Positions 2,168-22,036 of a stretch of 22,715 nucleotides of DNA are shown one piece after another. The position numbers and the translations under genes are program-made. Within the stretch, counting starts at the first letter, position 1. Each line of letters begins with the position of its first letter. Origin of the DNA: a virus; the IMG/VR virus record IMGVR_UViG_3300031974_001059, positions 1 to 22,715 of that record; one strand, written 5' to 3'. The notes beneath the pieces were generated by a model, which was given only the letters and a program-made list of their open reading frames with translations, was not told where the DNA came from and did not search any database.

Positions 2168-2194
2168 TATAAAACGAATTTATTTTGAATTTTG
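2168..2194 (-). promoter_or_regulatory. phage promoter candidate A (bipartite AAAAT / TCGTTTTATA)
   Basis: On the minus strand AAAAT (2193-2189) is followed after 11 bases by TCGTTTTATA (2177-2168), then only AGT before the ATG at 2164. It is one of five sites with the same architecture, all in the virion half. It lies just after a terminator, where a new transcript would have to begin. It lacks the host TAnnTTTG box. The leader would be zero to a few bases. Confidence 0.6.
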
Positions 2195-2197
2195 CGT

Positions 2198-2229
2198 AAA
2201 AAAAAAGCCACCTAATTAAAGATGGCTTT
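2198..2229 (-). terminator. Rho-independent terminator after the tail-tube-like gene
   Basis: On the minus strand AAAGCCA (2229-2223) pairs with TGGCTTT (2210-2204), with a partly pairable AT-rich loop, and leads into a run of nine T. It begins 18 bases after the stop of the gene at 2248-2772 and directly precedes promoter candidate A. Confidence 0.85.
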
Positions 2230-2247
2230 GATTTGTAATCAAACTAC

Positions 2248-2772
2248 TTATGGTGCAATTTGAGTAGCTTCCGTATTATCTGTTACAACAGTTGAAGTAG
2301 TAAAGTAAGCAGGAAGTGTTTCTTGTGCAGAGAATACTAAAGTAAACCCTGACAAATCACCCATAGCAGCACCAGTTACGATTGTTCCACCAGAAACATC
2401 CGCGCCGTGAACTGCACCTATCAAGAAATAGTTACCATTGTAATCCTCAACAAAGATATGTGGTCTTGCTTTGGCAATAGTTATGATTTCTGTTTGAGTT
2501 GCTAAATCTAATTTAGTTAAGGTCAAGTTTAAAGTTTGCTCATAAAAAGTAGTTCCGTTTTCGCGGCTACTTGTAATCGCTTGTTCGAGGTTTGAATTAC
2601 CCTTTACATCGAATTGATATAAGTCAGGAGTACCAGCAATAGCAGTCAATTCACCCGAAGCATCTACTGTCAAAGCACCTAAAGTGCCAAAGTCTGCCAT
2701 ATAAACTGCCTTAATACCACCGACTGAATCCTTACAAGGTAATTCACGACCAGTTGTTAATGTACACGCCAT
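2248..2772 (-). CDS. major tail (tube) protein, putative
   Basis: A 174-residue, Gly/Thr-rich, beta-predicted protein with no coiled coil. Landmarks are TTGRELPCKDSVGGIKAVY at the N-terminus, ITSSRENGTTFYEQTLNLTL in the middle and GAAMGDLSGFTLVFSAQE near the end. From memory this pattern belongs to an abundant virion protein family in Bacteroidota siphoviruses, best interpreted as the tail tube subunit. It sits between two strong terminators, one after the capsid gene and one after itself, with no promoter element visible in the 68-base gap, so it is probably transcribed by read-through from the capsid operon. Being a high-copy protein next to the capsid gene fits. It could also be a capsid decoration protein. 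Confidence 0.65.
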   Translation of the reverse strand: MACTLTTGRELPCKDSVGGIKAVYMADFGTLGALTVDASGELTAIAGTPDLYQFDVKGNSNLEQAITSSRENGTTFYEQTLNLTLTKLDLATQTEIITIAKARPHIFVEDYNGNYFLIGAVHGADVSGGTIVTGAAMGDLSGFTLVFSAQETLPAYFTTSTVVTDNTEATQIAP

Positions 2773-2788
2773 ATTTTATGTTTTAAAT

Positions 2789-2816
2789 AAAAAAGGGTGG
2801 GCAGTTGCGCCCACCC
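2789..2816 (-). terminator. strong Rho-independent terminator after the major capsid gene
   Basis: A perfect 8-bp GC-rich stem: GGGTGGGC (2816-2809) and GCCCACCC (2802-2795) around a six-base loop, then six T (2794-2789). It begins 25 bases after the capsid stop. It probably releases most transcripts, letting a minority read into the tail-tube-like gene. Confidence 0.95.
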
Positions 2817-2840
2817 CTTCTTAAGATTAATAATTAATTA

Positions 2841-3845
2841 TTAGTTGTAAAGTACACAATCTTGTGTAACACCTACTTGCGCACCTGCGGTGAATCTAAG
2901 GATAACGCGGACATTCTGGTCACCTAAAGTTTCAGAAGTATCAATCAAACGAACTTCGTTGTGGTCTTCTAAAAGTCCAGTCCCAAAGAACAAGTTAGAT
3001 TTCTGTGCAGCAACTGCTGTGTTATCAGGTAGTCCGTTAGCAACAAATACTTTTACACCATCAAAAGAAAGTGCGCCACCATTGTACCAAGTAGTACCTA
3101 AACTGTTTACACCATTTGCTCCGATGTCGCTTACATTTTCTGCACCAGCTACATTTTGTAAAGCAGCGAAACCACCTAAAGCACGAACATAAGCACGACC
3201 CATATTCTGTGATACATAAAGGTAAAGGTCATCTTTTCCGTAAACGGCTGCTGGTATTGCATCTACAATTTTACCCATTTCTTCGATAACATTAGCAGAA
3301 GTTACAGTGGCAGCAGTTACATCGTTAGTTGTAGATGCTTCAAGGATAGTAGTAATACCATCAAATTCTCCTGCGGTTGCAGTTGTTCCTTGCCATAGTG
3401 AATTCTCAACTGATTCAGCAACTTTAGAAGCAACTTGTGCAATCAAGAAGTCAGCGAAAGAAGCAGGTAGGTCAGCGTAAGCACTCATAGCCATTTCAGC
3501 ACCGATGTAGTCAGAATAGTAATCAGCTTTACACATTTGTAGATTTACTTGGAATTCTTCTACTGTAAGAACACGCTCACTCAAAGTGATAACATCATCT
3601 GAAGCAGAGAAATCACAAGAACCATCAGCAACAATGCTTCCCCAATCAAGTTTCTTAACTACTTGCTTGTATTTAACATTTGGTTTAATTGTAATTACAT
3701 CACTTGCTAAAGTGTTTCCAGAAAGAATTGCAGCAGCAATATACTCCCCTGCGAAAGAACCTTCGTAAGTAGTAGTAATTGGTGATACAACTGAAGTACT
3801 TGCGCCTCCAGGTGTAATGTCTCGTAAATTTACTTTATTACTCAT
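2841..3845 (-). CDS. major capsid protein
   Basis: A 334-residue protein, of a length usual for HK97-fold capsid subunits. It is Ala/Gly/Val-rich with very few Lys/Arg clusters, no membrane span and no catalytic motif. Family-like stretches are LTVEEFQVNLQMCKADYYSD, AQVASKVAESVENSLWQG, and a final FGTGLLEDHNEVRLIDTSE with GDQNVRVILRFTAG. The gene directly follows the scaffold-like gene (17-base gap) and is followed by the strongest terminator in the window, matching a highly expressed structural gene. The promoter would be element E upstream of the scaffold. Whether the N-terminus is cleaved by the protease at 5177-6064 cannot be told from sequence. Confidence 0.85.
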   Translation of the reverse strand: MSNKVNLRDITPGGASTSVVSPITTTYEGSFAGEYIAAAILSGNTLASDVITIKPNVKYKQVVKKLDWGSIVADGSCDFSASDDVITLSERVLTVEEFQVNLQMCKADYYSDYIGAEMAMSAYADLPASFADFLIAQVASKVAESVENSLWQGTTATAGEFDGITTILEASTTNDVTAATVTSANVIEEMGKIVDAIPAAVYGKDDLYLYVSQNMGRAYVRALGGFAALQNVAGAENVSDIGANGVNSLGTTWYNGGALSFDGVKVFVANGLPDNTAVAAQKSNLFFGTGLLEDHNEVRLIDTSETLGDQNVRVILRFTAGAQVGVTQDCVLYN

Positions 3846-3862
3846 TTTTTAAAATTTATTTA

Positions 3863-4519
3863 TTATTTATTTGAAATTCGTTGAAATACTCTTTGTAAAG
3901 TTGTGTTAGCAACACGACCGTTATTGAATCGTGGTGTAACTTTTTCTCCTTTTACTTCAGGACTATGCTTGAAGGTTTTTGAAAGTTTTTCTTCTTTTAC
4001 ATCAGCAGAAAGTTTTTCTTCTACTTCCTCTTGAACTTCTTCTACTTCTTCTATGGATAGTTTAGCTTCAAGTTCATTTACTTTGTTTTGTAATTCCTCA
4101 ATGATAGGATTTACACTTGATAAAATAGCTTCTACAAGTTCGCTTTTTTGTTCTTCAGAAAAATGCGTTTCTACAACTGTGCTTTCTACAACCTTTTTAG
4201 GTTCTTTAACATCGTTGCTCATTTCTTCTTCAACTTTAGCTTCTTCTTCTACCACTACTTCTTCTTCCTCTGCTTCGTCAGCAGCTTTGATTCCAGCAAT
4301 CACGCCTTCTTCTTCTATCATTAGCATTGAACCATCTTCCATCATATACTCTCCGATAGGCATAGGAATACGCTCATCTTCAGTAACGATAAATACTGGC
4401 TGTCCTTCTGCAAATTGGTCAGCAGAAATAACAGTACCATTATCTAACTTGCGGTCTTCAAGTTCAACACGAGTGTTAAGAAGCGTTTGGATTTGCTTTA
4501 ACATTTCTGTTGTTTTCAT
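3863..4519 (-). CDS. capsid scaffolding protein, putative
   Basis: A 218-residue, strongly acidic protein. Residues about 80-105 and 155-175 are runs rich in Glu and Val. A coiled-coil-like stretch (PIIEELQNKVNELEAKLSIE) lies near the middle, and the C-terminus is basic (TPRFNNGRVANTTLQRV). Acidic, helical, with a basic end that can hold the capsid subunit, is the usual layout of phage scaffolds, and the position immediately upstream of the capsid gene supports it. The sequence is too low in complexity for a family match, so the call rests on composition and neighbourhood. A promoter-like element lies 16 bases before the ATG. Confidence 0.65.
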   Translation of the reverse strand: MKTTEMLKQIQTLLNTRVELEDRKLDNGTVISADQFAEGQPVFIVTEDERIPMPIGEYMMEDGSMLMIEEEGVIAGIKAADEAEEEEVVVEEEAKVEEEMSNDVKEPKKVVESTVVETHFSEEQKSELVEAILSSVNPIIEELQNKVNELEAKLSIEEVEEVQEEVEEKLSADVKEEKLSKTFKHSPEVKGEKVTPRFNNGRVANTTLQRVFQRISNK

Positions 4520-4535
4520 AGATTACTTATTTAAT

Positions 4536-4562
4536 TATTAAACGATATATAAATTTATTTTG
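4536..4562 (-). promoter_or_regulatory. phage promoter candidate E (variant TCGTTTAATA)
   Basis: AAAAT (4561-4557), 11 bases, then TCGTTTAATA (4545-4536) on the minus strand. It differs by one base from the core shared by the other four sites and lies 16 bases before the scaffold ATG, giving a short leader. It is placed to drive the scaffold-capsid unit that ends at the terminator at 2789-2816. Confidence 0.5.
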
Positions 4563-4567
4563 CATTT

Positions 4568-5017
4568 TTAGGCTTTCTTCTGAATAATAAACCATTCCGA
4601 ACCATCAGACCAAATCTTGATTCCTTCGTATGATTTGTTTATTTCGTAGTAATCAGTCGACCCATCTAATTCATCACCACCAATAGGTGTAAGGCGTACT
4701 CTTGTGTTTGTGTTAAACCCACCATTACTAATAAATCGTATGGCTCGATTAATATTACTTGAGGCAGAAGGTAAATTTATTGTCATATTACCCGAATCCC
4801 CAGACCAAGTAAGTTTTATAAGCATTGCTTGTTCAAAAATTGTATCATCAAGATTTACCGTTGTATCTTTAACCACAGTTAAATTATAAGGCACTAAAGT
4901 GTTTTTTATTTTATTAACTGTTGTTTGCTTGGTAGTTCCCGATTGAACAGTTACTAAAAGTTCTGTTCCCGTTAAAGCACTTGCCGAACCTAATTGTGAT
5001 ATTTTCTTATCTGCCAT
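4568..5017 (-). CDS. virion appendage / tail-fibre-like structural protein, putative
   Basis: A 149-residue protein. The N-terminus (MADKKISQLGSASALTGTEL, then VQSGTTKQTTVNKIKN) matches the short start motif often seen at the head of phage fibre and spike proteins. The rest is Asn/Ser/Gly/Thr-rich and beta-predicted, ending in GIKIWSDGSEWFIIQKK, a small repeat-like strand motif seen at ends of fibre-like proteins. Its ATG overlaps the stop of the 55-residue gene by one base (TAATG). It is short for a receptor-binding fibre; a head decoration or neck protein is also possible. Confidence 0.55.
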   Translation of the reverse strand: MADKKISQLGSASALTGTELLVTVQSGTTKQTTVNKIKNTLVPYNLTVVKDTTVNLDDTIFEQAMLIKLTWSGDSGNMTINLPSASSNINRAIRFISNGGFNTNTRVRLTPIGGDELDGSTDYYEINKSYEGIKIWSDGSEWFIIQKKA

Positions 5018-5184
5018 TATAGAATGATTTTACTATTATCTTCTTGTAAGATTAAATCGTTGTTTTCTTGTTTTAAATAAAATTGGCTTTTTCTATCTAC
5101 ACCGATACCTTGCGCCCATAGGCTACCATCACAACAATCTATGTGATAAGTATTGGTGTCTTTACAATAGCAACCCCTACGCAT
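5017..5184 (-). CDS. small Cys-rich phage protein (55 aa)
   Basis: A short gene starting with ATG at 5184 and ending with TAA at 5017. It carries CYCKDTNTYHIDCCDG near the N-terminus, i.e. a CxC plus CC arrangement that could bind metal, then SLWAQGIG. It overlaps the protease stop by eight bases and the next gene's ATG by one base, so it fills the gap exactly as a translated gene should. The cysteines and the WAQGIG motif recall small proteins in related phages, but no function is known. Confidence 0.7.
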   Translation of the reverse strand: MRRGCYCKDTNTYHIDCCDGSLWAQGIGVDRKSQFYLKQENNDLILQEDNSKIIL

Positions 5185-6064
5185 TGTCAATTTGTTTTAG
5201 TTTACGAATTGCCCAAGCAACACCTTCATCGCCACCCCAAGCATCCCACATAAGACCACCACAACCTTCATCATAAGGAACATCTTTATATTGTTGGTGT
5301 CTTTTAAAACTTGCCATTCTTGCAATCGTATCTCGTGAAATCTTTTCGCCTTTAGCTAATTGGTTTGCTCTTTGTTTTCCTGTTGCCTCTCCGCATCTCC
5401 CCCATCCGTTCTTTTCTACCCATTTTAACGCTCTTTTAGCGTTGTTCTGTGCAGCTTTAGGGTAATCGTTATAAGTGTCAAATTGATAGCGGATAAGTGC
5501 TTGTTTTATTTCTAACAGTTTAAGACCTGCTTCTATTTCTTGTTGTTCTTCTTGTTCTTTTTCTGCAAAAAATCCCTCAATAGAAAAACCTTTAACAACA
5601 CCAGTCTTTACATAGTCTTGCCAAACTTCATCGTTTTCTACTTTAACACTTCCCATCCAAGTACCTACGGGTACATCCATTCCGTAATATGCTGACTTGT
5701 CTTTATCTTTATTTTCTACAATCCAACTTTCTACTAAAGTAAGTCCATCAATCTTATACAAATGCTCAAAAGTAGAATTATGTTGATTGCCTTTTTGTAA
5801 GAAAAGTTCCGATGCCTTACGGATTGTGTTTTTAGTAAAATAAATATAGTAATCTTCCTTTTCGTCTTTTCTATATATGGCTTTGTTAGGTACAAGCAAT
5901 GCACCCATCAAGATTCTCTTTTCTTTATCTACTTCTTGAAACTTGTATTCCTTTTTCTTATTAAGAGCAATAAAGTTTTCTTCTATGGCAGGATGTTCTA
6001 CAATACTAATGGCATCAATACCATTTTCTTGTTCTTCATCTATGATTAGTTCGATAATTTTCAT
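5177..6064 (-). CDS. XkdF-like prohead protease with extra C-terminal domain
   Basis: A 295-residue protein. Residues 1 to about 170 match the phage serine protease type of PBSX XkdF (Peptidase_S78_2): ISIVEHPAIEENF, then a His-containing segment (H95, H101), GLTLVESWIV (S113), VPVGTWMGSVKV, and VVKGFSIEGFF (S161). The catalytic pair is probably one of these His residues and S161 or S113. Such proteases mature the prohead, usually removing the scaffold. Residues about 190-295 form a second domain with AAQNNAKRALKW, a Cys-containing GRCGEATGKQRANQLAKGE, SRDTIARMASFKRH and a WGGDEG end, a module I recall from other phage head proteins. A promoter-like element ends three bases before the ATG. 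Confidence 0.8.
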   Translation of the reverse strand: MKIIELIIDEEQENGIDAISIVEHPAIEENFIALNKKKEYKFQEVDKEKRILMGALLVPNKAIYRKDEKEDYYIYFTKNTIRKASELFLQKGNQHNSTFEHLYKIDGLTLVESWIVENKDKDKSAYYGMDVPVGTWMGSVKVENDEVWQDYVKTGVVKGFSIEGFFAEKEQEEQQEIEAGLKLLEIKQALIRYQFDTYNDYPKAAQNNAKRALKWVEKNGWGRCGEATGKQRANQLAKGEKISRDTIARMASFKRHQQYKDVPYDEGCGGLMWDAWGGDEGVAWAIRKLKQIDNA

Positions 6065-6067
6065 ATC

Positions 6068-6094
6068 TATAAAACGATTTTAAATTATATTTTG
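6068..6094 (-). promoter_or_regulatory. phage promoter candidate B (bipartite AAAAT / TCGTTTTATA)
   Basis: AAAAT (6093-6089), 11 bases, TCGTTTTATA (6077-6068), then GAT and the protease ATG at 6064. It fills the 34-base gap between the tape measure stop and the protease start. The same core and the same three-base distance to the ATG occur at 2164 and 13327. Confidence 0.6.
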
Positions 6095-6098
6095 TGTT

Positions 6099-7931
6099 TT
6101 ATCCAAGTGTTGCACTTTCGACAATATTTCTATCTAAACTTTGTGCTGAACTGACTTCATTACTCACCACATAAGCCTTAACTGGTTTCTGTGAATCTTC
6201 TGCTAATAATCCTGCTAATTGATTTGTAGCACCACCACCAATAACATTAAATTGTGGTGCTTGTGTAGCGGCAGCGGTAAAGCCTGAAGCTGATGGTGTA
6301 GCACCGCCTCCTTCAGCACCTCGACCTTTAGGAACTTTTACAGATTTAATTGCTTGTATTTGTTTAAAACCAGCTGCAACTGCAACCGCCGCAGCAGCAG
6401 CACCTAAAGCGGGACCAACAATAGGAATACCAGCCAAAGATTTATAACTATCTGTTGCCGATTGATAAGTAGATATTAAAGTACCTGCGATTGCAGCGGC
6501 TTTACCTGCACTTGTTTGTTCACCTGCTAATGCAGAAAAATTCATAAGTAAACCACCTACTTTTGCTAAATTTTGTTTTTTAGCTTCGGCTTCAGCATCA
6601 TCTATTTTTTTACTTGCCTCTGCATCTTGTCTTTCTGCTTCTAATTTTTGTTCAGAATAAAAATCCCTAATAGATTGCTTTTCTTGTTCAGTAGCATTTA
6701 ATGCATCTAATTCGGCTAACTTTCTTTGTTCCTCTAATTGAACTTTTTGTAAAGCAGTTTGAACTTCTCTATCTTCTTGTTTTATTCTATAATCATTTCT
6801 GATTTTTTCAATAGCATCTAATCTTGCTTGTTCTTTTTTAACTTCTTCGGCTTGTGCTAATTCTTCTTCTTTTCTTGCAGCAGCTTCATCTCTTTGAATT
6901 TCTTTAGAAACGCGATTTAATTCCCTTTGTGTAGACCTTGCGGCATCTGCCCTTCTTGCGACTACTCTATTTACATCGGCAATAGCTTGTGCTTCTTTAT
7001 CTAAATTTTCTTTGTTACTCCTACTAAAGGTGTTTTCTAAAACCTGTGCATCCCTTCTTAATTCTAAAAATTCAGTTTCTTGCGCTAATAGTTGTTCTTC
7101 TAATTCTTGTGCATCTAATAACGCTTGTTTTCTTTCTTGCGCGCTAAATTCTTCTTCTTGTCTTGACTTTAAACGCAATAATGCTATTTCACTTTCAAGT
7201 TTTGACCTATCTACAACTAATTTTCTTTCAATTTTATCGGCTTTTGCCCTCATATCCGCAACAGATGCAGCAGCGTTTGCTTCATTTATCTGTTCTTTAA
7301 CAAATTCTTTAGTAGCTTGTGTTGCAGATTGAATTTTATCCGTAATATCTTCTACACCAAGAACAACTTTTGCCGCTGCGTTTGCCGCTACTTCTCCTGC
7401 TTCTGCAAATTCCCCACTAAATAGTAAATTAATCGCTTTTCCAAGTTGCGGAATAAGTTCAAGCATCCCTTCAAAACGATTTGTAATGTTTTCTTTTATT
7501 GCATTAGCAAAATCTGTAATAGCTTGTTTAGGATTCTCAAAGACCGATATAATACCTTCACCTAAATCAGCTAATAAATCAACAAGGTTACCCGTTAAAG
7601 CACCTATAACGGTCATTATTTTAGCAAATTTATTCTGCCCTTCTTCACTTCCAGTAAAAGCAGCAGTCAAAGCACCAATAGCAACAATAAGCGCACCTAT
7701 TCCTGTACTTAATATAGCTACCCGTAAAGACTTAAATCCACCCGTAACACCTTTTAAAGTACCTTTAAACGCATTGAACTTGGTGATTGCGCCACCAGTC
7801 ATTTTATCTAACGAACCAGTTAATTCGCCACTTACTTGTTGCGTTTGTTTTATTTCGCTATTAACACCCTGTAAACTTTGTTCAGCTTGTTTGGTGTTTG
7901 CTTTTACATTTAATATTACTTCTTGCGCCAT
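6099..7931 (-). CDS. tail tape measure protein
   Basis: A 610-residue protein with the classic layout: an N-terminal helical, Gln/Thr-rich segment, hydrophobic Gly/Ala stretches (about 70-90 and 105-125, including AILSTGIGALIVAIGALTAA), a long charged coiled coil (about 220-435) rich in Glu, Lys, Ala and Gln, and a second hydrophobic region (about 475-525, PIVGPALGAAAAAVAVAAGF). Tape measures thread the tail lumen and set its length at about 0.15 nm per residue, which would give about 90 nm here. It follows the large tail-tip gene. The 45-residue gene upstream overlaps its start by 16 bases. On the low side of usual tape measure lengths. Confidence 0.88.
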   Translation of the reverse strand: MAQEVILNVKANTKQAEQSLQGVNSEIKQTQQVSGELTGSLDKMTGGAITKFNAFKGTLKGVTGGFKSLRVAILSTGIGALIVAIGALTAAFTGSEEGQNKFAKIMTVIGALTGNLVDLLADLGEGIISVFENPKQAITDFANAIKENITNRFEGMLELIPQLGKAINLLFSGEFAEAGEVAANAAAKVVLGVEDITDKIQSATQATKEFVKEQINEANAAASVADMRAKADKIERKLVVDRSKLESEIALLRLKSRQEEEFSAQERKQALLDAQELEEQLLAQETEFLELRRDAQVLENTFSRSNKENLDKEAQAIADVNRVVARRADAARSTQRELNRVSKEIQRDEAAARKEEELAQAEEVKKEQARLDAIEKIRNDYRIKQEDREVQTALQKVQLEEQRKLAELDALNATEQEKQSIRDFYSEQKLEAERQDAEASKKIDDAEAEAKKQNLAKVGGLLMNFSALAGEQTSAGKAAAIAGTLISTYQSATDSYKSLAGIPIVGPALGAAAAAVAVAAGFKQIQAIKSVKVPKGRGAEGGGATPSASGFTAAATQAPQFNVIGGGATNQLAGLLAEDSQKPVKAYVVSNEVSSAQSLDRNIVESATLG

Positions 7932-8053
7932 TCTTTCTTGATTGTAGTTATTGCCTCTTTAAAGGTTTCTTCTAACTTATATTTGCCTTTAGCGATGTCT
8001 ATATATTCACCGCTTACATTGTATTTTAAACCTTCTAATATTGTCTTTAACAT
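7916..8053 (-). CDS. small basic phage protein (45 aa)
   Basis: ATG at 8053, TAA at 7916. The product starts MLKTILEGLKYNVSGEY and ends TIKKEWRKK; it is lysine-rich and helical. It overlaps the stop of the 819-residue gene by seven bases and the tape measure start by 16, so both neighbours are coupled to it and it leaves no unexplained gap. No family is recognised; the position suggests a tail assembly accessory protein. Confidence 0.6.
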   Translation of the reverse strand: MLKTILEGLKYNVSGEYIDIAKGKYKLEETFKEAITTIKKEWRKK

Positions 8054-10506
8054 CTGTTTAATTCTGTTAATAGATTAAAACTTTCACATTCGTTTTCGTA
8101 ATAACTTGCCCTATCTTCTAATTCATTCAAATAATAAAACAAATCATAACCTTGCGTAGCTTCACGAACTACACGCGAACCAAATTCATCATTACTTCCA
8201 TATAATGCTTGAACACCTACTGTATTGCTTGATTCAAAATCAATAGTCGTGTATTCGTAAAAAGGCGTATCTTGATTTAGTTTGGTTAAACTAACACCAT
8301 TCAAATAAACCAAATACCCATTAACACCATCCATATAATTCCAAACCAATTTTCTATCACAAGGCGTAGGCAGTTGTGTAATAACTGGTTCGGGTTTGCT
8401 TGGGTCGATTATAATATCTTCTGTGTCGGCGGGATTAGCCGATGGTGGTAAATCGTTATATAGAACTAAAGTACTTTCTTGATTTAGTAAATTAGTGTTT
8501 ACCGATTCTATCTTAAATGTGTTATACCCTATTCTAAATCTATCGTTTAGATTATAAGACAATAAAAGACCTAAAGGCAAATAAGATTTGTAGGTTACCT
8601 TTCTTGCATTTTGTGCAAATACCGAAGTGATAGAATCAAAATAGTATCTATTGTATAGACTTTGTTGCTCTAAAACTTCTGTGTATTCATTTTGCTCTGC
8701 TCCCCAATGTATTGAATTGTTATTGGCATCTATATTAGTTGGCGCGTTAAAGTCTGTTAGTGTTGCTTGTGTAGAATCGCCATTATTCCATTTTAAGTTA
8801 GGCGTAGGTGTAGACCTTAACACAATAGAATGAATCAAAGGCATCCCAACAATAGGATTCAAATCCTGGTCAATCATTACACCATATTGCACCGTACTTT
8901 CTGTACCACCTGAAGATAAAATTCTTTCAAAGTACATATGCTCAAAATCTAAACCTACATTGTAGGCTTGACCATCCATATCTTCCGTTCCAGCAGTCCA
9001 GTTTAAATCACCGAACTTGTTATTAGGAAATGCTTGGTCATAAGCCATTATAGCAGCACTTTTTCTCCCCTTATATGTAAAGTTTATTTCCTTGTAAGGA
9101 ATAAGTCTATCTACTTGTGCTGAACTTACATCTATGTTTTTTGTAATGTCGTGTGTTTCTCCCGTTGAATAGTAATCTTGTAGCGGAAGTACATTTACTG
9201 TTTCATCACCGTTTAGTTCTTTGTCAATAGATGCTGTAAGTTGGTGCATCTTAAACAAATTAATCACAAAGTCATAAACCTTCATATTAGGCATTTGACT
9301 TGGTATATCTAAATAACCTGAAACAGCAATAGCACTTGCAGTATAAGTAGCAGTTCCATCATCAGTCCAAGTATCAGAATAATTTATTTTAGTCTGTCTT
9401 TTAATGGTTACTTGTTGTGTAGGACTAATAGCAGCAGTACTGGTTATTCTAAAATCTAAAAAATATGTTTGCGCTTGACCATCTAAATATAAGTCTGTCG
9501 AAAAAGTATTTGTCCCCGTTGCGCTTGAATTATAAAGCAAAGAACCATTATCGGTAATTTGTACATCGTAAGCTGAAAGACCTGAAATATTCACTTTATA
9601 AGTTTGTACTATATATCTTGTAAATGGAAATTCACCATAAGGACTATTAAATGCAAATAAACCACCATCGGCAGTTCTAAAATCTGTACCACTTGTTAAT
9701 GCCCAAGTCGATGTGTCCGATAAATAAGTTGTTAGCAGATTCTCACTATATTGCTTCATCTCACCAGCTTCTTTGTGAAGCCACATATAAAGATTCTTGA
9801 AGTAAGTTGTGTTAAAGAAATCTTGACTAAAGGTTATACTATACTTTTCTTCTATTGCCTTAACAATACTTTTTAGTCTTAATGATGGTTTTAAATCACT
9901 TAATCCTAAATAAGTGTCAAGACCAGTTTCACCATCATAATCAGATATAACATCCACACCATCGTATCTAAATGGTCTTGAATGTGAAATAAAACTATAC
10001 TTAATGTCCCCTGCTCTTGGTGTACCTGCAAATAATTGTTGTGAATTGTTAAAACTTTTGCGTACAGTTAAATTGTTGTAAGTGTGATTATAAGTGTTTA
10101 GTCCTTCAGTACCACCTACAAGCATTGCTAAATTATCTTCACCAAATAAGTCTTTTAACGCAACTGCATTACCAAAGAAAGTAACTTGATATGATTCAGG
10201 TGAATTGTCTTTTAGTTTAACACCACTTAACCTCAACTTACCATCCTTGTATCTTATGCCGTTTACATTTAGATAAGCATCGGTTTTATAACGAGCATCA
10301 AAAACATTGTTTACTATATTATAGTTATAGTAATGTTTAAATATTCTGTTATTTGTTGGCGAAGCAGGTAAGGTAAATTGTCTTGAGTACGCAGTATAGA
10401 TTTTAGATATATCTTTGATATTGGCAATACTATCTGAAATAGTAATGCTTTCATCTTTGAACATATCTACTTGTTCACCATCTACAAAAAGTTGTACTAT
10501 CTGCAT
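8047..10506 (-). CDS. tail tip / baseplate-type structural protein, large
   Basis: An 819-residue protein, largest in the window, mostly beta-predicted with many Asn, Thr, Ser and aromatic residues and no membrane span. The N-terminus (about 1-120) has VQLFVDGEQVDMFKDESI and SRQFTLPASPTNNRIFKHYY, a pattern I associate with the tail protein placed next to the tape measure in Bacteroidota siphoviruses. A fibronectin-III-like C-terminal part is suggested around 715-790 (CDRKLVWNYMDGVNGYLVYL). The ATG directly follows the stop of the 346-residue gene with no gap. Distal tail or hub protein is the best guess; host-binding is possible but not shown. Confidence 0.6.
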   Translation of the reverse strand: MQIVQLFVDGEQVDMFKDESITISDSIANIKDISKIYTAYSRQFTLPASPTNNRIFKHYYNYNIVNNVFDARYKTDAYLNVNGIRYKDGKLRLSGVKLKDNSPESYQVTFFGNAVALKDLFGEDNLAMLVGGTEGLNTYNHTYNNLTVRKSFNNSQQLFAGTPRAGDIKYSFISHSRPFRYDGVDVISDYDGETGLDTYLGLSDLKPSLRLKSIVKAIEEKYSITFSQDFFNTTYFKNLYMWLHKEAGEMKQYSENLLTTYLSDTSTWALTSGTDFRTADGGLFAFNSPYGEFPFTRYIVQTYKVNISGLSAYDVQITDNGSLLYNSSATGTNTFSTDLYLDGQAQTYFLDFRITSTAAISPTQQVTIKRQTKINYSDTWTDDGTATYTASAIAVSGYLDIPSQMPNMKVYDFVINLFKMHQLTASIDKELNGDETVNVLPLQDYYSTGETHDITKNIDVSSAQVDRLIPYKEINFTYKGRKSAAIMAYDQAFPNNKFGDLNWTAGTEDMDGQAYNVGLDFEHMYFERILSSGGTESTVQYGVMIDQDLNPIVGMPLIHSIVLRSTPTPNLKWNNGDSTQATLTDFNAPTNIDANNNSIHWGAEQNEYTEVLEQQSLYNRYYFDSITSVFAQNARKVTYKSYLPLGLLLSYNLNDRFRIGYNTFKIESVNTNLLNQESTLVLYNDLPPSANPADTEDIIIDPSKPEPVITQLPTPCDRKLVWNYMDGVNGYLVYLNGVSLTKLNQDTPFYEYTTIDFESSNTVGVQALYGSNDEFGSRVVREATQGYDLFYYLNELEDRASYYENECESFNLLTELNRC

Positions 10507-11547
10507 CTATCGGATGTTTTGTGCTACATCATTAGCAAATTCAATATCTAAAGTGTAGTTAATCAGTTTATCATTTCGGCTTGTCTTGTAACTAATAGAA
10601 CTTGATGATATATTACAAGGTATTTCGTTTTCTTCGTAATAAATCCATACATTCTCACTTAATAGCAGTTCTTTAAAAACATCGTTATTATTCTCTGGAT
10701 AGAAACCACTATTTAAGGTTAAAGATTCGTTAGCGTTCTTTAAAACGATTGATTTTTGCGCTTGACCTAAATTGTAATTACCATTCTCAATGATATTCTT
10801 TTTGTAGTAGGTTACATTTGTGTTCATATTCCTTACAGACTTTTTAAACATTGTAAGGCTTTGTAGTGCGCCATATCTATTTACAAATGTTAGTCTATAA
10901 GGTGTATCTAAACATTCTGTTACATTCTCTACGGTGTAGGTTTGTGATTTAACACCCGTAGCTACCACAACTTCATCTACATTATCACTTGCACCTGTGT
11001 TAGAAAAGTATTCTACTTGGTCATAGCTATTAGTACTGCTTGATATTGTTTCTACATTGACATTAGAACCATCCTTTTTAAATGTAACCGTAGTCCCATC
11101 AAAATCATTATCTACGGGAAAGTATAAAGTATCGTCTGCGTTTTTTACTATATATGTATTACTTAATAATGCAGCTTGTCCAGTTAATTGTGGATTAACA
11201 CCATCTGCAATATATCCGTAACCATCAAACCCTCTTAACTGCACCATAGGTTGTGCAGAAGAAGTATTTACAAAGTATCTTGTAACCACATAATCTACCC
11301 AAACATTATTCAAAATAGATGCACTATTAACATAAGATAAAGTCATTTCAATATAATCCTTTACCAAGTCTGCTATCTCAAAATCTACTCTTGCGCTTAC
11401 TGCGTTAGAACTTAAAGTATAATTAGGACTTGCAGGTCTGTCCGTAGTCTGTACACCCGTATAAATATATATATCAATAGAAGCCGATACCATACCTGAT
11501 TGATAGGTAGAAACATAATATGGACTTCTTACATTTATTTTAGCCAT
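10507..11547 (-). CDS. tail structural protein, putative
   Basis: A 346-residue, beta-rich protein starting MAKINVRSPYYVSTYQSG, with many Tyr, Asn, Val and Ser residues, no catalytic motif and no signal peptide. Its ATG overlaps the stop of the gp10-like gene by eight bases, and its TAG abuts the ATG of the 819-residue gene, so the two large proteins are made together. It probably forms part of the distal tail along with that neighbour. Assignment is from composition and position only. Confidence 0.5.
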   Translation of the reverse strand: MAKINVRSPYYVSTYQSGMVSASIDIYIYTGVQTTDRPASPNYTLSSNAVSARVDFEIADLVKDYIEMTLSYVNSASILNNVWVDYVVTRYFVNTSSAQPMVQLRGFDGYGYIADGVNPQLTGQAALLSNTYIVKNADDTLYFPVDNDFDGTTVTFKKDGSNVNVETISSSTNSYDQVEYFSNTGASDNVDEVVVATGVKSQTYTVENVTECLDTPYRLTFVNRYGALQSLTMFKKSVRNMNTNVTYYKKNIIENGNYNLGQAQKSIVLKNANESLTLNSGFYPENNNDVFKELLLSENVWIYYEENEIPCNISSSSISYKTSRNDKLINYTLDIEFANDVAQNIR

Positions 11548-12115
11548 TTAATTGTTGTTTAGTTGTAAATTCTAAAAATGCTTCAGTATCTAAAGCAAAA
11601 GCAGATTCTAATTCAGTTGGTAAATCTTTAGCATATTTTTGAAATGCTTTTGTAAAAAACAAACTTGGTTTAATTCCTCTATTGTAAATATTGCCCGCAA
11701 TAATATGCGCTATTGACTTGTAGTTTCCTTTTGTAAATCTACCTTTTTCATCTCTTAATCTTACATTTTTTCGTTTCGCCCATTGTTCAATACTTTTTAC
11801 AAAGCCAGACCAATTACCAGTTTTACCACTACCAAACCGATAAGGACTATTTGGTGCTTGTTGTCCTTTAATTTTCGCATTAGGTGAAACTTTTGACGGG
11901 TCGTTTCCTTTAACACCTTTGTCTTGAAATACACCGTAAGGATTCATTTCAATTTCAAACTGCAAACTTCTTTCTGTTACCTTTACTTGACCGCCCTTTA
12001 TAGAATTCTCTAAACTACCCCCGCCCTTTTTTTCTTTACGCAGGTTCTTTTTAGATTCTTCTACAACCTTATCCCTAAATTGCTCTAATGCCTTTTTAAA
12101 GTTGTCTAATTGCAT
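11540..12115 (-). CDS. HK97 gp10-like tail/neck protein
   Basis: A 191-residue basic protein. Features matching the HK97 gp10/tail-completion type are an N-terminal helix (LDNFKKALEQFRDKVVEE), a central YGVFQDKGVKG, then LRDEKGRFTKGNYKSIAHII and NRGIKPSLFFTKAF, the GI-x-P-S-x-F-F pattern common in this group. These proteins act at the neck between head-tail connector and tail tube. It overlaps its upstream neighbour by ten bases. The motif is persuasive but the family is diverse. Confidence 0.65.
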   Translation of the reverse strand: MQLDNFKKALEQFRDKVVEESKKNLRKEKKGGGSLENSIKGGQVKVTERSLQFEIEMNPYGVFQDKGVKGNDPSKVSPNAKIKGQQAPNSPYRFGSGKTGNWSGFVKSIEQWAKRKNVRLRDEKGRFTKGNYKSIAHIIAGNIYNRGIKPSLFFTKAFQKYAKDLPTELESAFALDTEAFLEFTTKQQLNG

Positions 12116-12579
12116 ATATCAATGTTATTCATAGTAACTACATCAAATGTACTTGCCCATCCTGCTAATTCGTTTTCAAACCTATCATAAAACGCTTCTA
12201 AACTTGCACTACCTTCTAAATGATACCCGTCTTGGTGCGGTGTGCCTTTTCTTAATTTTTGTTGTAATCTGTTTAGTACAGATAATTGTGTGTTCAGTAC
12301 ATCTTGCCTATTATCATTTCCAACAAATACATCAGTCGTTTCGTCTTTACTTGTATCCACCAAGTCCATAGCCATAACCGAAATATTATACGATAAAGTT
12401 TGTCCATTGTCTGTTACATTGTTTATCATTATGTGTGATAAAGGAAATATGGTCTGCTTGTTTAAGTCTACTTCAGTAATATCACCAAAGGTTACCGTAT
12501 TGACATTTTCATCTGCTTGTAAGATGTCTTTTATCTTTGTGGTTAAATCGTAAAATGATTGAATCCCCCTATATGTCAT
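12106..12579 (-). CDS. tail terminator / completion-like protein
   Basis: A 157-residue protein starting MTYRGIQSFYDLTTKIKDIL, then DLNKQTIFPLSHIMINNV, a SYNISVMAMDLVD strand, VLNTQLSVLNRLQQKLRKG and a final ELAGWASTFDVV. This strand-helix-strand pattern with a late W-x-x-x-F segment recalls tail terminator proteins that cap the tube and join the neck. Its ATG shares ATGA with the stop of the -1-frame chaperone ORF, which argues that the ORF is translated up to that point. Role inferred from layout and position. Confidence 0.55.
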   Translation of the reverse strand: MTYRGIQSFYDLTTKIKDILQADENVNTVTFGDITEVDLNKQTIFPLSHIMINNVTDNGQTLSYNISVMAMDLVDTSKDETTDVFVGNDNRQDVLNTQLSVLNRLQQKLRKGTPHQDGYHLEGSASLEAFYDRFENELAGWASTFDVVTMNNIDICN

Positions 12580-12830
12580 TTCATTTTTCTTTTAAGTTCT
12601 TGCGCTTCTATGTCAGCTTTTTCTTTTTTAAACATCAACATCAATAAACAAGTATTAAAGTTTAGTTCTGTTATCTTTTCAAATTGGGTAACATCTCCAT
12701 CGGCAAGTGCATATACTGATTGATACCATCCCCATTTAGCACCGAAATTTGCTCTGCTGTCAAGTCCTCCTTGTGTTCCTGCTGTAAATAAGCTATCATA
12801 GCTTTCGACAATTCGATTCCTAAATTCCAA
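12576..12830 (-). CDS. -1-frame extension of the tail assembly chaperone (gpT-like)
   Basis: An 84-codon reading frame in the -1 frame relative to the ORF at 12671-13327 and overlapping it by 160 bases. It has no ATG at its start: it opens with TTG right after the T-run. It includes GAKWGWYQSVYALADGDV and ends KADIEAQELKRKMK, with the Trp/Tyr-then-charged-helix look of phage T-type chaperone tails. Entered by slippage at the nine-T run, it would add 84 residues after 166 residues of the 0-frame, giving a 250-residue fusion (G-T type). Its TGA overlaps the next gene's ATG, as expected for a translated frame. Independent initiation at TTG is the alternative. Confidence 0.7.
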   Translation of the reverse strand: MEFRNRIVESYDSLFTAGTQGGLDSRANFGAKWGWYQSVYALADGDVTQFEKITELNFNTCLLMLMFKKEKADIEAQELKRKMK

Positions 12831-13327
12831 AAAAAAAGCATAGAACTAACAACTGCATCCATCGGTGTATGTAACATCGCCTCGTGATAGTTATCCCCTC
12901 TATATTCCTCAATTAGATACTTTTGTTTTATCTTTTGTTTTATTGGTCGGTATAATACCGCCATTGCTTTATGTAAGTTTTTAATATCACCTATTGAATT
13001 GTCTAAATCAATATACTCGCCAAAGGTCATATCTTCTAACTTGGGTATAAAACCAAATTCTGTATCACCTATTGTAAAGTTCCTTACCAAGTCAGGTTTA
13101 TCTTCAAGTGTTTTAGCAATCATTTCTGTAACATTGTCAATGTCAGACTTACGATATTTAAGCGCATCACTCAATGGTAAATCACAAAATATTTGCAGCA
13201 TTTTTTCTTGTATAAACAAGTCGTTAGAATCTGCATCTTTGTTTATTTCTAATACCTTGTGAAATTCTTGGTATTTGTATAAAGGTATATCTGATAAATC
13301 AGTAGGTACTTTTATCTTTACTTCCAT
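12671..13327 (-). CDS. tail assembly chaperone (gpG-like, 0-frame product)
   Basis: A 218-residue protein: MEVKIKVPTDLSDIPLYKYQ at the N-terminus, FGFIPKLEDMTFGEYIDLD around 103-120, MAVLYRPIKQKIKQKY around 130-145, then MLFFWNLGIELSKA, where the reading frame could slip. The central FGFIP...TFGEY...LYRPI series is, from memory, a conserved family in Bacteroidota phages next to tail genes. With the overlapping -1 frame it has the layout of lambda G/GT, chaperones that load the tape measure with tube subunits. The tape measure here lies about 4.6 kb downstream, not next door as usual. A promoter-like element ends three bases before the ATG. Confidence 0.7.
   Translation of the reverse strand: MEVKIKVPTDLSDIPLYKYQEFHKVLEINKDADSNDLFIQEKMLQIFCDLPLSDALKYRKSDIDNVTEMIAKTLEDKPDLVRNFTIGDTEFGFIPKLEDMTFGEYIDLDNSIGDIKNLHKAMAVLYRPIKQKIKQKYLIEEYRGDNYHEAMLHTPMDAVVSSMLFFWNLGIELSKAMIAYLQQEHKEDLTAEQISVLNGDGINQYMHLPMEMLPNLKR
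12829..12837 (-). other. candidate -1 frameshift slippery site (nine T)
   Basis: On the minus strand the mRNA reads ATG CTT TTT TTT TGG in the 0-frame. The run contains T TTT TTT, which fits the X XXY YYZ heptamer, so both tRNAs can re-pair after slipping back one base. Slippage after TTT (12832-12830) re-reads base 12830 as TTG and enters the 84-codon frame. An inverted repeat AAGCT-ATGAT-AGCTT begins about 23 bases downstream, rather far for a classic stimulator. Confidence 0.7.
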
Positions 13328-13330
13328 AAC

Positions 13331-13356
13331 TATAAAACGATTTATTTTTGATTTTT
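13331..13356 (-). promoter_or_regulatory. phage promoter candidate C (bipartite AAAAT / TCGTTTTATA)
   Basis: AAAAT (13355-13351), 10 bases, TCGTTTTATA (13340-13331), then GTT and the ATG at 13327. It occupies the whole 33-base gap after the large terminase stop and would drive the tail operon. Confidence 0.6.
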
Positions 13357-13360
13357 AAGA

Positions 13361-14521
13361 CTATCGGACTGCGTATTTTCCGTAATTGGCTTTTATGCCT
13401 AAAGATTCCATCTCGTGGTATCTCAAGGCATCTATTGCGTGATTGTATTGGTCTATTGGTTTGTTTAGTCTTTGACCTGTTTTGTTTGTGTCCCAAGAAT
13501 AAGACCGAAGTTCTTTGATTAGGTTTTGACTACTCTTTGTTACAAGATAATCTTGTCTTTGCATTATGTCTATTCCGTAGTTTATAGAATCACGACCTTT
13601 TGTAACGCCTTTGATTTGTATGCCATACCTTCTTATTTCGTCTATGGATTTAGGTTCTGCTGAATCTGCGTAAACAATAACACCTTTAGGTAGTTCATTG
13701 GCAATGTCAGAATTTAGCATCCTTGTTCGGTAGACTAATTCGTTTACTATTCTTTGATTGTTGTATTTGTAAACCTCAACGATTGCCGTTGGGTCGTTAG
13801 TGTAACCAAAGTCTAAACCTATGCCCACAAGTTTTGCTTCAGGTGGTATTGTGTCGATTTGTTGCCAATTAGAAAAGATAACACCTTCTAAAGAACCTAC
13901 TTGACCAAGACCATATACATTCCACCAGTTCGCCCAGTAAGAAGATGTTTTTGCTTTTTCCTTGTTCTTTTCTATTTGTTCTACTATGCCCTTATCTAAT
14001 GCTTCGTTGTCTTTATAGGTTAAGATAATAAAGTCAGAATCTTCTTGGTCTTTTAGTTCTGAATGTACCCAAAATTCATTAGATGGGTTAAAGTCAATAA
14101 AAATTTCTTTCTTGGTACGAATCGCAAGTTCGTTATAAGCGTCTAAAGTTATTGCGTTGGCTTCGTTTAAGAATAACACATCCCTTCTTGCACCTCTTAA
14201 TTTGCTTGAATCGTCAGCACTAAAGAATTCTATGTAACTGCCGTTCTTAAATTCGTATCTTAAAAGTGATTTGTTTAGTTGGACTTCTTGGAATCTATTT
14301 GTCCACTTTAGAATTTTAAGAAAGTCTTTATATGCACCTCTGCGCAGGTGTGGGATAGATTCAGCCACTACGCTTATCTCTATTCCGTTATTCTTGATTG
14401 CTTTGTCTATTAAAATAGCCAAGATGGAAAATGTCTTTGATGACGAAGTTCCACCTTGTATAATCTTTATGCGTTTGTCTAACGCTAATATTTTATTTGT
14501 CGCTGTTGTCCTTTGGAACAT
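13361..14521 (-). CDS. terL: terminase large subunit
   Basis: A 386-residue packaging motor. ATPase half: Walker A QGGTSSSKT (22-30), Walker B VLFLNE (115-120) with catalytic Glu, and FIDFNPSNEF (141-150) as coupling motif. Nuclease half: GIGLDFGYTNDPTA with D237, VIVYADSAEP with D286, and HAIDALRY with D364, giving the three acidic residues of the RNase H-like nuclease. It is of the PBSX/Terminase_3 kind and somewhat short for it (usually 400-450) but complete in motifs. It cuts concatemers and pumps DNA into the prohead through the portal. It overlaps the small-subunit gene by 29 bases. Confidence 0.95.
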   Translation of the reverse strand: MFQRTTATNKILALDKRIKIIQGGTSSSKTFSILAILIDKAIKNNGIEISVVAESIPHLRRGAYKDFLKILKWTNRFQEVQLNKSLLRYEFKNGSYIEFFSADDSSKLRGARRDVLFLNEANAITLDAYNELAIRTKKEIFIDFNPSNEFWVHSELKDQEDSDFIILTYKDNEALDKGIVEQIEKNKEKAKTSSYWANWWNVYGLGQVGSLEGVIFSNWQQIDTIPPEAKLVGIGLDFGYTNDPTAIVEVYKYNNQRIVNELVYRTRMLNSDIANELPKGVIVYADSAEPKSIDEIRRYGIQIKGVTKGRDSINYGIDIMQRQDYLVTKSSQNLIKELRSYSWDTNKTGQRLNKPIDQYNHAIDALRYHEMESLGIKANYGKYAVR

Positions 14522-14825
14522 CTGGAAATAAAGGTTGCTCTAAAATAGTTTGTTCTACTTGTTGAACTGGTGAACCATAGCCACTATCCATTAGTGCTTT
14601 GTATGCGTTTACATCACCCTCTGAAGCCTTTTTAAGTAATGCTAAAGTAATTAAATCTTCTTGGCTTAATTCTTCAGATTCTAAAGTTAAAGGATTCTTT
14701 GCCTCTTGCATAGCTTGTAACCACTTCTTTGCAATGGTGCTTCTATTCTTTGAACCTTTAGGTCTGCCATTAGGATTCCCGCTTTGTCCTTTCTTGTAAG
14801 GTATAAGATTTTCTTCGTTAGCCAT
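14493..14825 (-). CDS. terminase small subunit, putative (DUF5681-like)
   Basis: A 110-residue protein beginning with the recognisable KKGQSGNPNGRPKGSKNRST, the DUF5681-type N-terminal motif, followed by helices (LITLALLKKASEGDVNAYKA) and an acidic end. Small terminase subunits bind the packaging start site and stimulate the large subunit. The position directly before the large subunit, with overlapping ends, supports the role; the motif alone does not prove it. A promoter-like element lies 24 bases before the ATG, making it first gene of the virion half. Confidence 0.7.
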   Translation of the reverse strand: MANEENLIPYKKGQSGNPNGRPKGSKNRSTIAKKWLQAMQEAKNPLTLESEELSQEDLITLALLKKASEGDVNAYKALMDSGYGSPVQQVEQTILEQPLFPDVPKDNSDK

Positions 14826-14849
14826 ATCTCTATGTTTTTTCTCTGTACT

Positions 14850-14876
14850 TATAAAACGAATAATTTTCTATTTTAG
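14850..14876 (-). promoter_or_regulatory. phage promoter candidate D (bipartite AAAAT / TCGTTTTATA)
   Basis: AAAAT (14874-14870), 10 bases, TCGTTTTATA (14859-14850), 24 bases before the small terminase ATG. It marks the boundary between the replication half and the virion half and overlaps the stop of the 33-residue membrane peptide gene. Confidence 0.6.
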
Positions 14877-14974
14877 GATGTAATTGCACCTATAATAATC
14901 ACAATAACACCTATAATTATAGAATAAAAAACTATTCTTGCTGAATCTTTGTACCTTTTCATTGCTTCTTCCAT
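14873..14974 (-). CDS. single-span membrane peptide (33 aa)
   Basis: ATG at 14974, TAA at 14873. After a polar start (MEEAMKRYKDSARIVF) comes one hydrophobic span of about 16 residues (YSIIIGVIVIIIGAIT). It overlaps the 46-residue gene upstream by 16 bases. A holin-like or other small membrane role is possible because no lysis gene is otherwise visible, but nothing in the sequence proves it. The reading frame's clean membrane pattern and coupling argue that it is translated. Confidence 0.55.
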   Translation of the reverse strand: MEEAMKRYKDSARIVFYSIIIGVIVIIIGAITS

Positions 14975-15099
14975 TGTACAGCACATACGGCAAGTCTTTG
15001 ATTCTTTTCAGGGTATTCTTTTACCATAGTAGGATTAGACATACATCTTTGTATAAACTTTTCTCTTGTTTCTGTTGCGGTTCTTTTAGGTAGTGGCAT
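14959..15099 (-). CDS. small conserved phage protein (46 aa)
   Basis: The ATG at 15099 lies inside the end of the DnaA-like gene (14-base overlap). Within the product, FIQRCMSNPTMVKEYPEKNQ and the Arg-Leu-Ala-Val-Cys that follows match a short motif seen in many phages, often at the ends of head or packaging proteins: Arg-Cys, Met, Glu-Tyr/Phe-Pro, Gln-Arg, Val-Cys, Trp. Here it stands alone as a tiny gene just upstream of the terminase genes. Function unknown. Confidence 0.7.
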   Translation of the reverse strand: MPLPKRTATETREKFIQRCMSNPTMVKEYPEKNQRLAVCAVQWKKQ

Positions 15100-18278: not shown

Positions 18279-18308
18279 CAAATATACAAACTATTTTCTA
18301 ATTACAAA
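18279..18308 (-). promoter_or_regulatory. Bacteroidota-type housekeeping promoter
   Basis: On the minus strand TTTG (18308-18305), an 18-base spacer and TATATTTG (18286-18279), matching the Bacteroidota pattern of TTTG at -33 and TAnnTTTG at -7. The start would be about 20-25 bases before the ATG at 18251. The region is non-coding, which strengthens the call. Confidence 0.75.
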
Positions 18309-18962: not shown

Positions 18963-19103
18963 TTAATTTCGTCTAAACACTTTTATATTGTCTAACTTTT
19001 GTTTTCTTTCTTCACAACCGCAGTCATCACCCCATATCTTTTTTACAATCCAAGCGATTCCGGTAAACTTAAATATCTTCTCGAGTATTGTTCCAAGTTT
19101 CAT
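18963..19103 (-). CDS. small phage protein with CGC motif (46 aa)
   Basis: ATG at 19103 inside the end of the sigma factor gene (35-base overlap), TAA at 18963. Composition: MKLGTILEKIFKFTGIAWIV, a half-hydrophobic segment, then WGDDCGCEERKQKLDNIKVF. The DDCGCxxRKxKL motif recurs, from memory, in small Bacteroidota phage proteins; the neighbour downstream has a similar DCGC. Whether the two are distant duplicates is unclear. Function unknown. Confidence 0.7.
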   Translation of the reverse strand: MKLGTILEKIFKFTGIAWIVKKIWGDDCGCEERKQKLDNIKVFRRN

Positions 19104-19599
19104 AGTTATCTTTTATTTCGTTCTTAATTATTTTTACCGTGTTGTAAAGCGAATAGTAACTTATGGTAGTTTGTCTTGATAGTTCTGCTATTGATTTGTT
19201 TTCAAGCATTACTTCGTTAAACACACAAGCATTGTAAATCTTTTTTATGTTTTCTGTGTCCTCCAAGTTAAGCTGTTCTAAATTATGTTCGTTTATCCAC
19301 TTGGTTATGTATTGGCTTTTTGTTGTGTCGGTTTCTATGTATTCTTCTTCTTCTATGTGTGGTATTTCTTCTGTAAAGTAAAATCGCTTTTCTTTTTTCT
19401 TTAGGTCAAATACCATATTTCTTAAAACTAAATAGACGAAATAGAAATTAATCTTTTCGCCTATCATTATATCTTTATCGTAGTCGTGCATTTTAAGATA
19501 CAGTTCCTGAACAATATCTTTAGCGGTGTCTATGTTTACTTTAAAACTTAAAACATAACTTATCCAAAGGTCGTGATGTTTAGATAGTATTTGTAACAT
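19069..19599 (-). CDS. ECF-like phage RNA polymerase sigma factor
   Basis: A 176-residue protein with a sigma-70 layout. Region 2 (about 25-75) has AKDIVQELYLKMHDYD, then the core-binding and -10-reading helix NFYFVYLVLRNMVFDLKKKE. A short acidic linker follows (about 78-90). Region 4 (about 120-165) is a helix-turn-helix: LENKSIAELSRQTTISYYSL with NTVKIIKNEIKD. Such proteins redirect host RNA polymerase to chosen promoters. It is the only visible transcription factor in the window, so it is the best candidate to recognise the five AAAAT/TCGTTTWATA sites of the virion half. Its ATG overlaps the upstream stop by one base. Confidence 0.8.
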   Translation of the reverse strand: MLQILSKHHDLWISYVLSFKVNIDTAKDIVQELYLKMHDYDKDIMIGEKINFYFVYLVLRNMVFDLKKKEKRFYFTEEIPHIEEEEYIETDTTKSQYITKWINEHNLEQLNLEDTENIKKIYNACVFNEVMLENKSIAELSRQTTISYYSLYNTVKIIKNEIKDNYETWNNTREDI

Positions 19600-21890: not shown

Positions 21891-21921
21891 CAAATATAAA
21901 ACTTTTTGTTTATAAAAAAAA
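21891..21921 (-). promoter_or_regulatory. host-type promoter upstream of the 66-residue gene
   Basis: TATATTTG (21898-21891) fits TAnnTTTG exactly, 26 bases before the ATG at 21864. The -33 position 19 bases upstream reads TTTT instead of TTTG, so the match is partial. It lies after the terminator at 21930-21957, where a fresh start would be needed for the operon that includes the SSB-like gene. Confidence 0.6.
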
Positions 21922-22005: not shown

Positions 22006-22036
22006 CAAATATAACTAAAACTTTTCTTTTTCCAAA
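22006..22036 (-). promoter_or_regulatory. consensus Bacteroidota promoter at the end of the NinG-like gene
   Basis: TTTG (22036-22033), exactly 19 bases, TATATTTG (22013-22006), the best match in the window. It straddles the 3' end and stop of the NinG-like gene. It shares the 11-base box TTATATTTGAG with the promoter at 21891. Part is in coding sequence, so composition alone may explain some of the match. Confidence 0.6.

Follow-up and report, generated by a model that had tools for sequence, protein, structure and literature searches.

A repeated element upstream of virion genes

The virus record IMGVR_UViG_3300031974_001059 of IMG/VR, analysed here over a window of 22,715 bases, is divided between a virion half and a replication half, and contains five copies of a bipartite element, AAAAT-N10/11-TCGTTTWATA, which very probably act as late promoters for host RNA polymerase carrying the phage's own extracytoplasmic function (ECF)-type sigma factor. 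A pattern search of the window returns exactly five matches, every one on the minus strand (2168-2193, 4536-4561, 6068-6093, 13331-13355, and 14850-14874), as an earlier reading of the sequence alone (the original prediction) had claimed, although their upper ends lie 1-2 bases lower than it gave. The first copy, P1 (2168..2195, core 2168-2177), precedes a gene for a 110-amino acid (aa) connector-like protein (1832-2164), and the second, P2 (4536..4563, core TCGTTTAATA at 4536-4545), a scaffold-like gene (3863-4519). P3 (6068..6095) lies before an S78-type prohead protease gene (5177-6064), the product of which matches Peptidase_S78_2 (1e-17), P4 (13331..13358) before a tail assembly chaperone gene (12671-13327), and P5 (14850..14877) before a small terminase gene (14493-14825), whose product matches DUF5681 (3e-14). 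These are the same five downstream genes that had been named before, and it is their content that suggests late timing. The core reads TCGTTTTATA in four copies and, one base different as first described, TCGTTTAATA in the fifth, and the conserved stretch continues below it in the five aligned copies as TCGTTTTATA-R-N-T-A. P2 is the weakest copy, found with changes in the related genomes G001 and G002 and unchanged in L077.

Chance or a coding repeat can be rejected as the origin of the element, with five core matches found against 0.35 expected (the largest count in a shuffle being 2) and no match to the full pattern in 100 dinucleotide shuffles of the window. Bases lo..lo+26 of each copy, counted from its lower coordinate, fall outside all predicted genes, and only 9.4% of the window is non-coding; the intergenic placement originally described is therefore seen directly for all five, although the overlap of one copy with a stop codon is not found in the present gene calls. 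An equal density in coding sequence or on the plus strand, which had been named as what would speak against a promoter class, is not observed, there being zero copies in genes, on the plus strand, or in the replication half of the window.

The host primary sigma factor appears to be served elsewhere. The Bacteroidetes sigmaA box TAnnTTTG is absent from all five elements, and the form TAHHTTTG, searched on the gene-sense strand, falls between genes in the replication half alone, every copy in the virion half being within a gene. Motif matches to a sigmaA-like -7 box, TATATTTG, occur on the minus strand at 18279..18286, with TTTG 18 nucleotides (nt) upstream, before an early gene (17979-18251), at 21891..21898 before another early gene (21664-21864), and at 22006..22013 in an early intergenic region upstream of the run of replication and sigma genes. 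This division between the halves agrees with the original prediction, and its description of the element as non-host is correct as regards the box of the primary sigma factor, although flavobacterial host ECF promoters likewise have a CGT -10 box (PMC9723704).

Predicted start-site register and conservation among relatives

A feature that the original prediction did not mention is that in three of the five copies exactly 3 bases separate the end of the core from an ATG. Set against the predicted transcription start, the core occupies -13..-4 and the start always reads T(-1)A(+1). A(+1) coincides with the A of the ATG at P1, P3, and P4 (genes starting at 2164, 6064, and 13327), from which the corresponding mRNAs would be leaderless, while at P2 and P5 the predicted starts (4532 and 14846) would leave leaders of 13 and 21 nt. 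The T-1/A+1 step is present in 39 of 39 distinct copies from the window and its close relatives, and across these the distance from A(+1) to the ATG is 0 in 24 and 13, 19, 21, 22, or 30 in the other 15, but never 1-12. The element keeps a constant distance to the TA step but not to the start codon, which is the pattern of a transcription start site and not of a ribosome-binding site. An ECF-type start is expected ∼10-12 nt below the CGT box, which is where the invariant T-1A+1 lies.

The copy before the 110-aa gene is also preceded by a terminator-like hairpin. In the window this hairpin, with its T tail, lies directly upstream of P1 (2204..2229, minus strand), and with equivalents in eight other genomes the arrangement is seen in nine, the stem sequences differing between lineages. 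A hairpin followed by a start site fits the beginning of a new transcription unit, which needs a start just below the terminator. A second terminator-like hairpin lies between the major capsid gene and a 174-aa gene (2799..2816, minus strand), and the two are in keeping with the division of the virion genes into separate units that was originally proposed. The 174-aa gene itself (2248-2816, minus strand) follows a GC-rich terminator-like hairpin in relatives as well and has no late promoter of its own, an arrangement through which the amount of capsid relative to downstream protein may be set.

It might be argued instead that the element is a translation-initiation signal, a ribosome-binding context in an organism that does not use Shine-Dalgarno sequences, since its distance from the ATG is fixed in three of five copies and start contexts in Bacteroidetes are A-rich and Kozak-like (PMC6847099). 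The T-rich, CG-containing core is unlike such a context, however, and before other genes the element stands 13, 19, 21, 22, or 30 nt upstream of the start codon with T-1A+1 retained. It also sits after a hairpin terminator at the connector gene, is missing in front of the capsid gene among others, and does not occur in relatives that lack the sigma factor described below. This explanation is very unlikely and was rejected, the TA step being constant where the distance to the ATG is not.

Conservation of the putative promoters was followed through 80 IMG/VR relatives obtained by a large terminase search. All relatives with a terminase at least 85% identical keep TCGTTTTATA before the terminase and chaperone genes where their sequence covers them. 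A matrix trained on copies from the window and close relatives scores real sites at 18.9-41.7 bits, against a best of 5.8 in 20 shuffled windows. Sites above 13 bits number two to five each in the window and in G001 (31 kb), G002 (30 kb), and G003 (25 kb); all are intergenic, all are on the strand of the virion genes, and none is in the replication half, so that in these four the matrix scan of related phages suggested at the outset yields only a handful of hits, each in a late intergenic position. G002 and other relatives have exchanged their packaging genes (large terminase 41% identical, a ParB-like gene first) but retain the element, which is fused to the start codon of the gene that now comes first. 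The exchanged module of L104/G002 (11619-15869) contains ParB-like, glycosyltransferase-like, and other genes, named by eye, together with the 41%-identical large terminase, and keeps the promoter at its start.

Where the terminase is only 64-76% identical, the lineages have a diverged form of the element upstream of the 110-aa, protease, and chaperone genes, its core again at -13..-4 relative to the ATG; in front of the capsid, portal, tape-measure, and tail genes of these distant clades it was looked for and found absent. Core variants of these clades include AGGTTATATA, TAGTTAAATA, AAGTTATTAA, CAGTTATATA, and TCGTTATATA, usually with TACAAA or AACAAA at about -31..-26, and while the position of the element is constant its sequence shifts to ACAAA...NGTTATA. 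Weighting by clade gives the consensus A(-30)C(-29)A(-28)A(-27) ... (A/C)(-12)G(-11)T(-10)T(-9)A(-8)T(-7)A(-6) ... T(-1)A(+1). Across relatives the upstream half is (T/A)ACAAA or AAC, ∼16 bp before CGTT; the window clade has A-tracts at this place and a strict CGTT. The AAAAT half of the original prediction is present in the window copies, but appears from this comparison as a degenerated form.

A phage ECF-type sigma factor as candidate reader

The proposed reader of P1-P5 is a 176-aa protein encoded in the replication half (19069..19599, minus strand), homologs of which occur in nearly all relatives long enough to show one. Its assignment draws on profiles and on a predicted structure. The family profile retrieves ECF sigma factors from the Protein Data Bank (PDB; best 1e-5), ECF models of NCBIfam match 31 of 35 family members (the window member at 1e-5), and Sigma70_r2 and Sigma70_r4_2 match 19 of 35 (best 8e-8) and 3 of 35, respectively. 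In the model, helices 115-172 form a C-terminal sigma4-like helix-turn-helix, sigma1.1 and sigma3 are absent, and the length lies within the ∼160-200 aa range of ECF factors; the PDB fold matches are almost only full-length ECF sigma factors, with Mycobacterium tuberculosis SigL and Escherichia coli sigmaE leading and SigW also present. With predicted sigma2 and sigma4 domains, the protein classifies as an ECF (group IV) sigma factor whose polymerase binding and initiation are putative. A second, divergent sigma-like gene directly follows the sigma gene in L017 (4022-4567), as well as in L100, L101, and L098; it has a sigma2-like N-terminus (DAQDIIQEFFIKM) and a C-terminal tail resembling that of the first copy, with no clear helix-turn-helix.

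The elements and the sigma gene are directly observed to occur together. With a generic matrix built leaving one clade out, so that the clade under test was excluded from training (threshold 11), at least one gene start is marked in 17 of 17 sigma-bearing genomes, and in these genomes 30 of 643 gene-start ATGs are marked compared with 2 of 12,154 other ATGs (p = 2.5e-37). All three of the window's leaderless sites are recovered in this way. Among the 27 closest terminase relatives without the sigma gene, which include Flavobacterium phage FPSV-S2, none of 644 gene starts and none of the 27 genomes is marked. A blind scan of IMG/VR with WAATCGTTTTATARNTATG gave 106 stretches, the majority of them containing homologs of window genes, and the sigma gene is present in five of the seven contigs of at least 20 kb that were checked (1e-24 to 1e-32), which represent new lineages. 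One of these five, G043, has three elements, one before a chaperone homolog and the others before two genes identified by eye, of which one is connector-like and one probably encodes the protease.

Two further groups emerged alongside these. A 90-aa gene with the signature MSIxxSxFSAGYTG repeatedly has an AACAA box and TCGTTTTATAGAT-ATG upstream (L210, L211, L215, L216, L248, L266, L274, and others), is present in several sigma-bearing contigs (G039, G041, and G044), and is likely a leaderless late gene. Contigs L239, L273, L212, L214, L229, and L249 carry the same WAATCGTTTTATARNTATG string at gene starts and have a T4-like look, with UvsY-like and gp62-like proteins recognized by eye; T4-like contigs without window homologs were set aside, the match being probably coincidental, or else convergent. 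A TIGR02937 profile search on the blind-scan records without window homologs gave matches in 3 of 18, none over the cut-off.

Cultivated relatives were reached via the tail chaperone gene, in the Nonlabens phages P12024S and P12024L (Inhavirus). Both encode a homolog of the sigma factor upstream of the terminase (hidden Markov model E 2e-16), annotated as "Sigma-70 region 2" (gp33/gp35). Direct searches were less productive, as tblastn of the window sigma against the cultivated phage collection found nothing and the L028 homolog gave only weak matches to cultivated phages (E about 0.06). Besides sigma gp33, P12024S has seven copies of AAC-N16-CGTTAATA, in the form AAAACAAA-N13-CGTTAATATA-NN-ATG, before gp01, gp05, gp08, gp35, gp41, gp44, and gp45, with an upstream box that is clear in most copies and weaker in some. 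The register is that of the window: counted from the A of the ATG, C stands at -12 and AAC at -31..-29. Two further IMG/VR contigs carry an element of the same type. P12024S and P12024L thus resemble the window in having a sigma-70 region 2 protein and start-codon-fused elements before late genes (CGTTAATA in P12024S), and P12024S differs from it in its seven copies and its clear AAC-N16-CGTT, which is the classical layout of an ECF promoter. The ECF spacing, in which an AAC-like -35 box precedes a CGT-type -10 box by 15-17 bp, is likewise seen in the blind-scan lineages, where AAC stands 15-16 bp before CGTT. No published description of the promoters of P12024S/P12024L was found.

That the elements are operators, or repeated sites for replication or packaging that are intergenic by happenstance, would account for a short repeated intergenic sequence, but hardly for its strict orientation to genes, its fixed start-site register, its ECF-like bipartite spacing, and its complete absence from the replication half and from the opposite strand, and is so improbable as to be negligible. 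Reading of late promoters by a host alternative (ECF) sigma factor, or by the host primary sigma factor with a phage activator, in place of the product of ORF 19069-19599, gains something from the lack of TAnnTTTG and from the CGT -10 box of flavobacterial host ECF promoters (PMC9723704). A shared host factor does not predict, however, that the promoter sequence should differ from clade to clade among phages or that the element should be missing in related phages without the sigma homolog, and this alternative is unlikely.

Recognition of P1-P5 by the phage sigma factor consequently remains the preferred reading, and several observations weigh against it. The window clade has a degenerate -35 box, the window sigma by itself matches Pfam Sigma70_r2 weakly (E 0.1), and its structure is predicted with moderate confidence (predicted local distance difference test score 70). 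The sigma-bearing genome G042 has no gene-start element above a score of 9, the remoter sigma-bearing loci L157, L141, L134, and L162, from bacterial bins, show no matrix match and no matching gene-start elements, and the co-occurrence is partly phylogenetic, as sigma factor and promoters share ancestry. The phage-specific late promoter class of the original prediction is nevertheless the best reading of high-scoring sites that are few and late, kept despite a packaging swap, placed after a hairpin, and accompanied by a phage ECF sigma factor.

In the mechanism proposed, host primary sigma (sigmaA) would transcribe the replication half from the TATATTTG boxes, leading to production of the phage ECF sigma factor. 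Its sigma2 domain would read the -10 element CGTT(T/A)TATA, the C of which stands at -12. The sigma4 domain would recognize a weak, A-rich -35 box with its centre near -29, represented in relatives by ACAAA or AAC, and transcription would begin at the conserved TA step. At P1, P3, and P4 (connector-like, protease, and tail-chaperone genes) the start would be the A of the AUG, yielding leaderless mRNAs, while P2 and P5 (scaffold and small terminase) would give short leaders, 13-30 nt across copies. The terminator just above the connector promoter P1 would make the connector gene group its own transcription unit, and together with the hairpin before the 174-aa gene it would split the virion genes into units.

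Neighbouring genes, known systems, and implications

Two genes next to the proposed promoters have further features. Inside the chaperone gene, a run of nine T (12829-12837, minus strand) stands at the junction of ORFs 12671-13327 and 12576-12830, and a -1 frameshift at this point would lead into the overlapping downstream frame (LEFRNRIVESY...); relatives keep the overlapping pair, and the site resembles a programmed frameshift of the G/GT type known from tail assembly chaperones. The gene at 15086-15646 (minus strand), immediately upstream of the promoter of the small terminase, encodes a phage protein whose DNA-binding domain is that of the DnaA C-terminus (Bac_DnaA_C, 2e-10).

Phage sigma factors dedicated to late genes have a precedent in T4 gp55, which reads TATAAATA only and needs a clamp co-activator. 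The window system is alike in its use of a phage sigma factor for late genes and differs in that neither the TATAAATA motif nor clamp co-activator genes are seen in it. Phage sigma factors annotated as ECF and having their own promoters are known from phiEco32 (gp36) and its relatives SU10 and 7-11 (PMC4281155; PMC4331800), which come nearest to the window system. In these phages, as proposed here, a small sigma factor sends the host core polymerase to a few short, conserved, low-copy promoters before structural genes, and host promoters serve the early genes. Their tAATGTATAtA box lies 6-8 nt before the start site, middle genes are served too, the hosts are enterobacterial, and the leaders are not fused to start codons as far as the two descriptions say (PMC4281155; PMC4331800), whereas the window system combines AAC/ACAAA and CGTTWTATA in Bacteroidota phages, before late genes only, and would be mostly leaderless. 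The tAATGTATAtA motif (PMC4281155) is not found in the window element, which reads TCGTTTTATA. With their different motifs and hosts, the two are systems of the same kind and only tentatively, if at all, members of one family. Host ECF promoters of Flavobacterium (motif SM6) share the CGT -10 box and the use of a Bacteroidota RNA polymerase, but belong to a cellular regulon, including type IX secretion, in contrast to the phage sigma factor and virion genes considered here (PMC9723704). The literature searches turned up no paper on late promoters in flavobacterial phages, this element included. New in this case are the group of phages concerned, the two-part architecture of the promoter, and its fusion to the start codon.

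The control of transcription in Bacteroidota phages is almost undescribed, and the analysis provides a specific sigma-promoter pair, a start site predicted to the base, and a cultivated test system in P12024S/L on Nonlabens. Among flavobacteria, leaderless mRNAs are a small minority of 5.5% in F. psychrophilum (PMC9723704), and the majority of transcripts of F. johnsoniae are leadered (PMC6847099); a concentration of leaderless mRNAs on three conserved late genes would therefore be notable. We consider it fairly probable that late virion mRNAs are obligatorily leaderless in this Bacteroidota phage lineage, which would have fused promoter and start codon so that the phage ECF sigma factor sets the start on the A of the AUG of the connector-like, protease, and tail chaperone genes, across lineages whose sigma factors share ∼30% identity or less and in hosts where such mRNAs are rare. 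The divergent series of phage sigma/promoter pairs lends itself to working out ECF specificity, and, if the leaderless layout is true, these phages would offer a natural set of orthologous leaderless mRNAs from which to learn how ribosomes that ignore Shine-Dalgarno sequences choose their starts.

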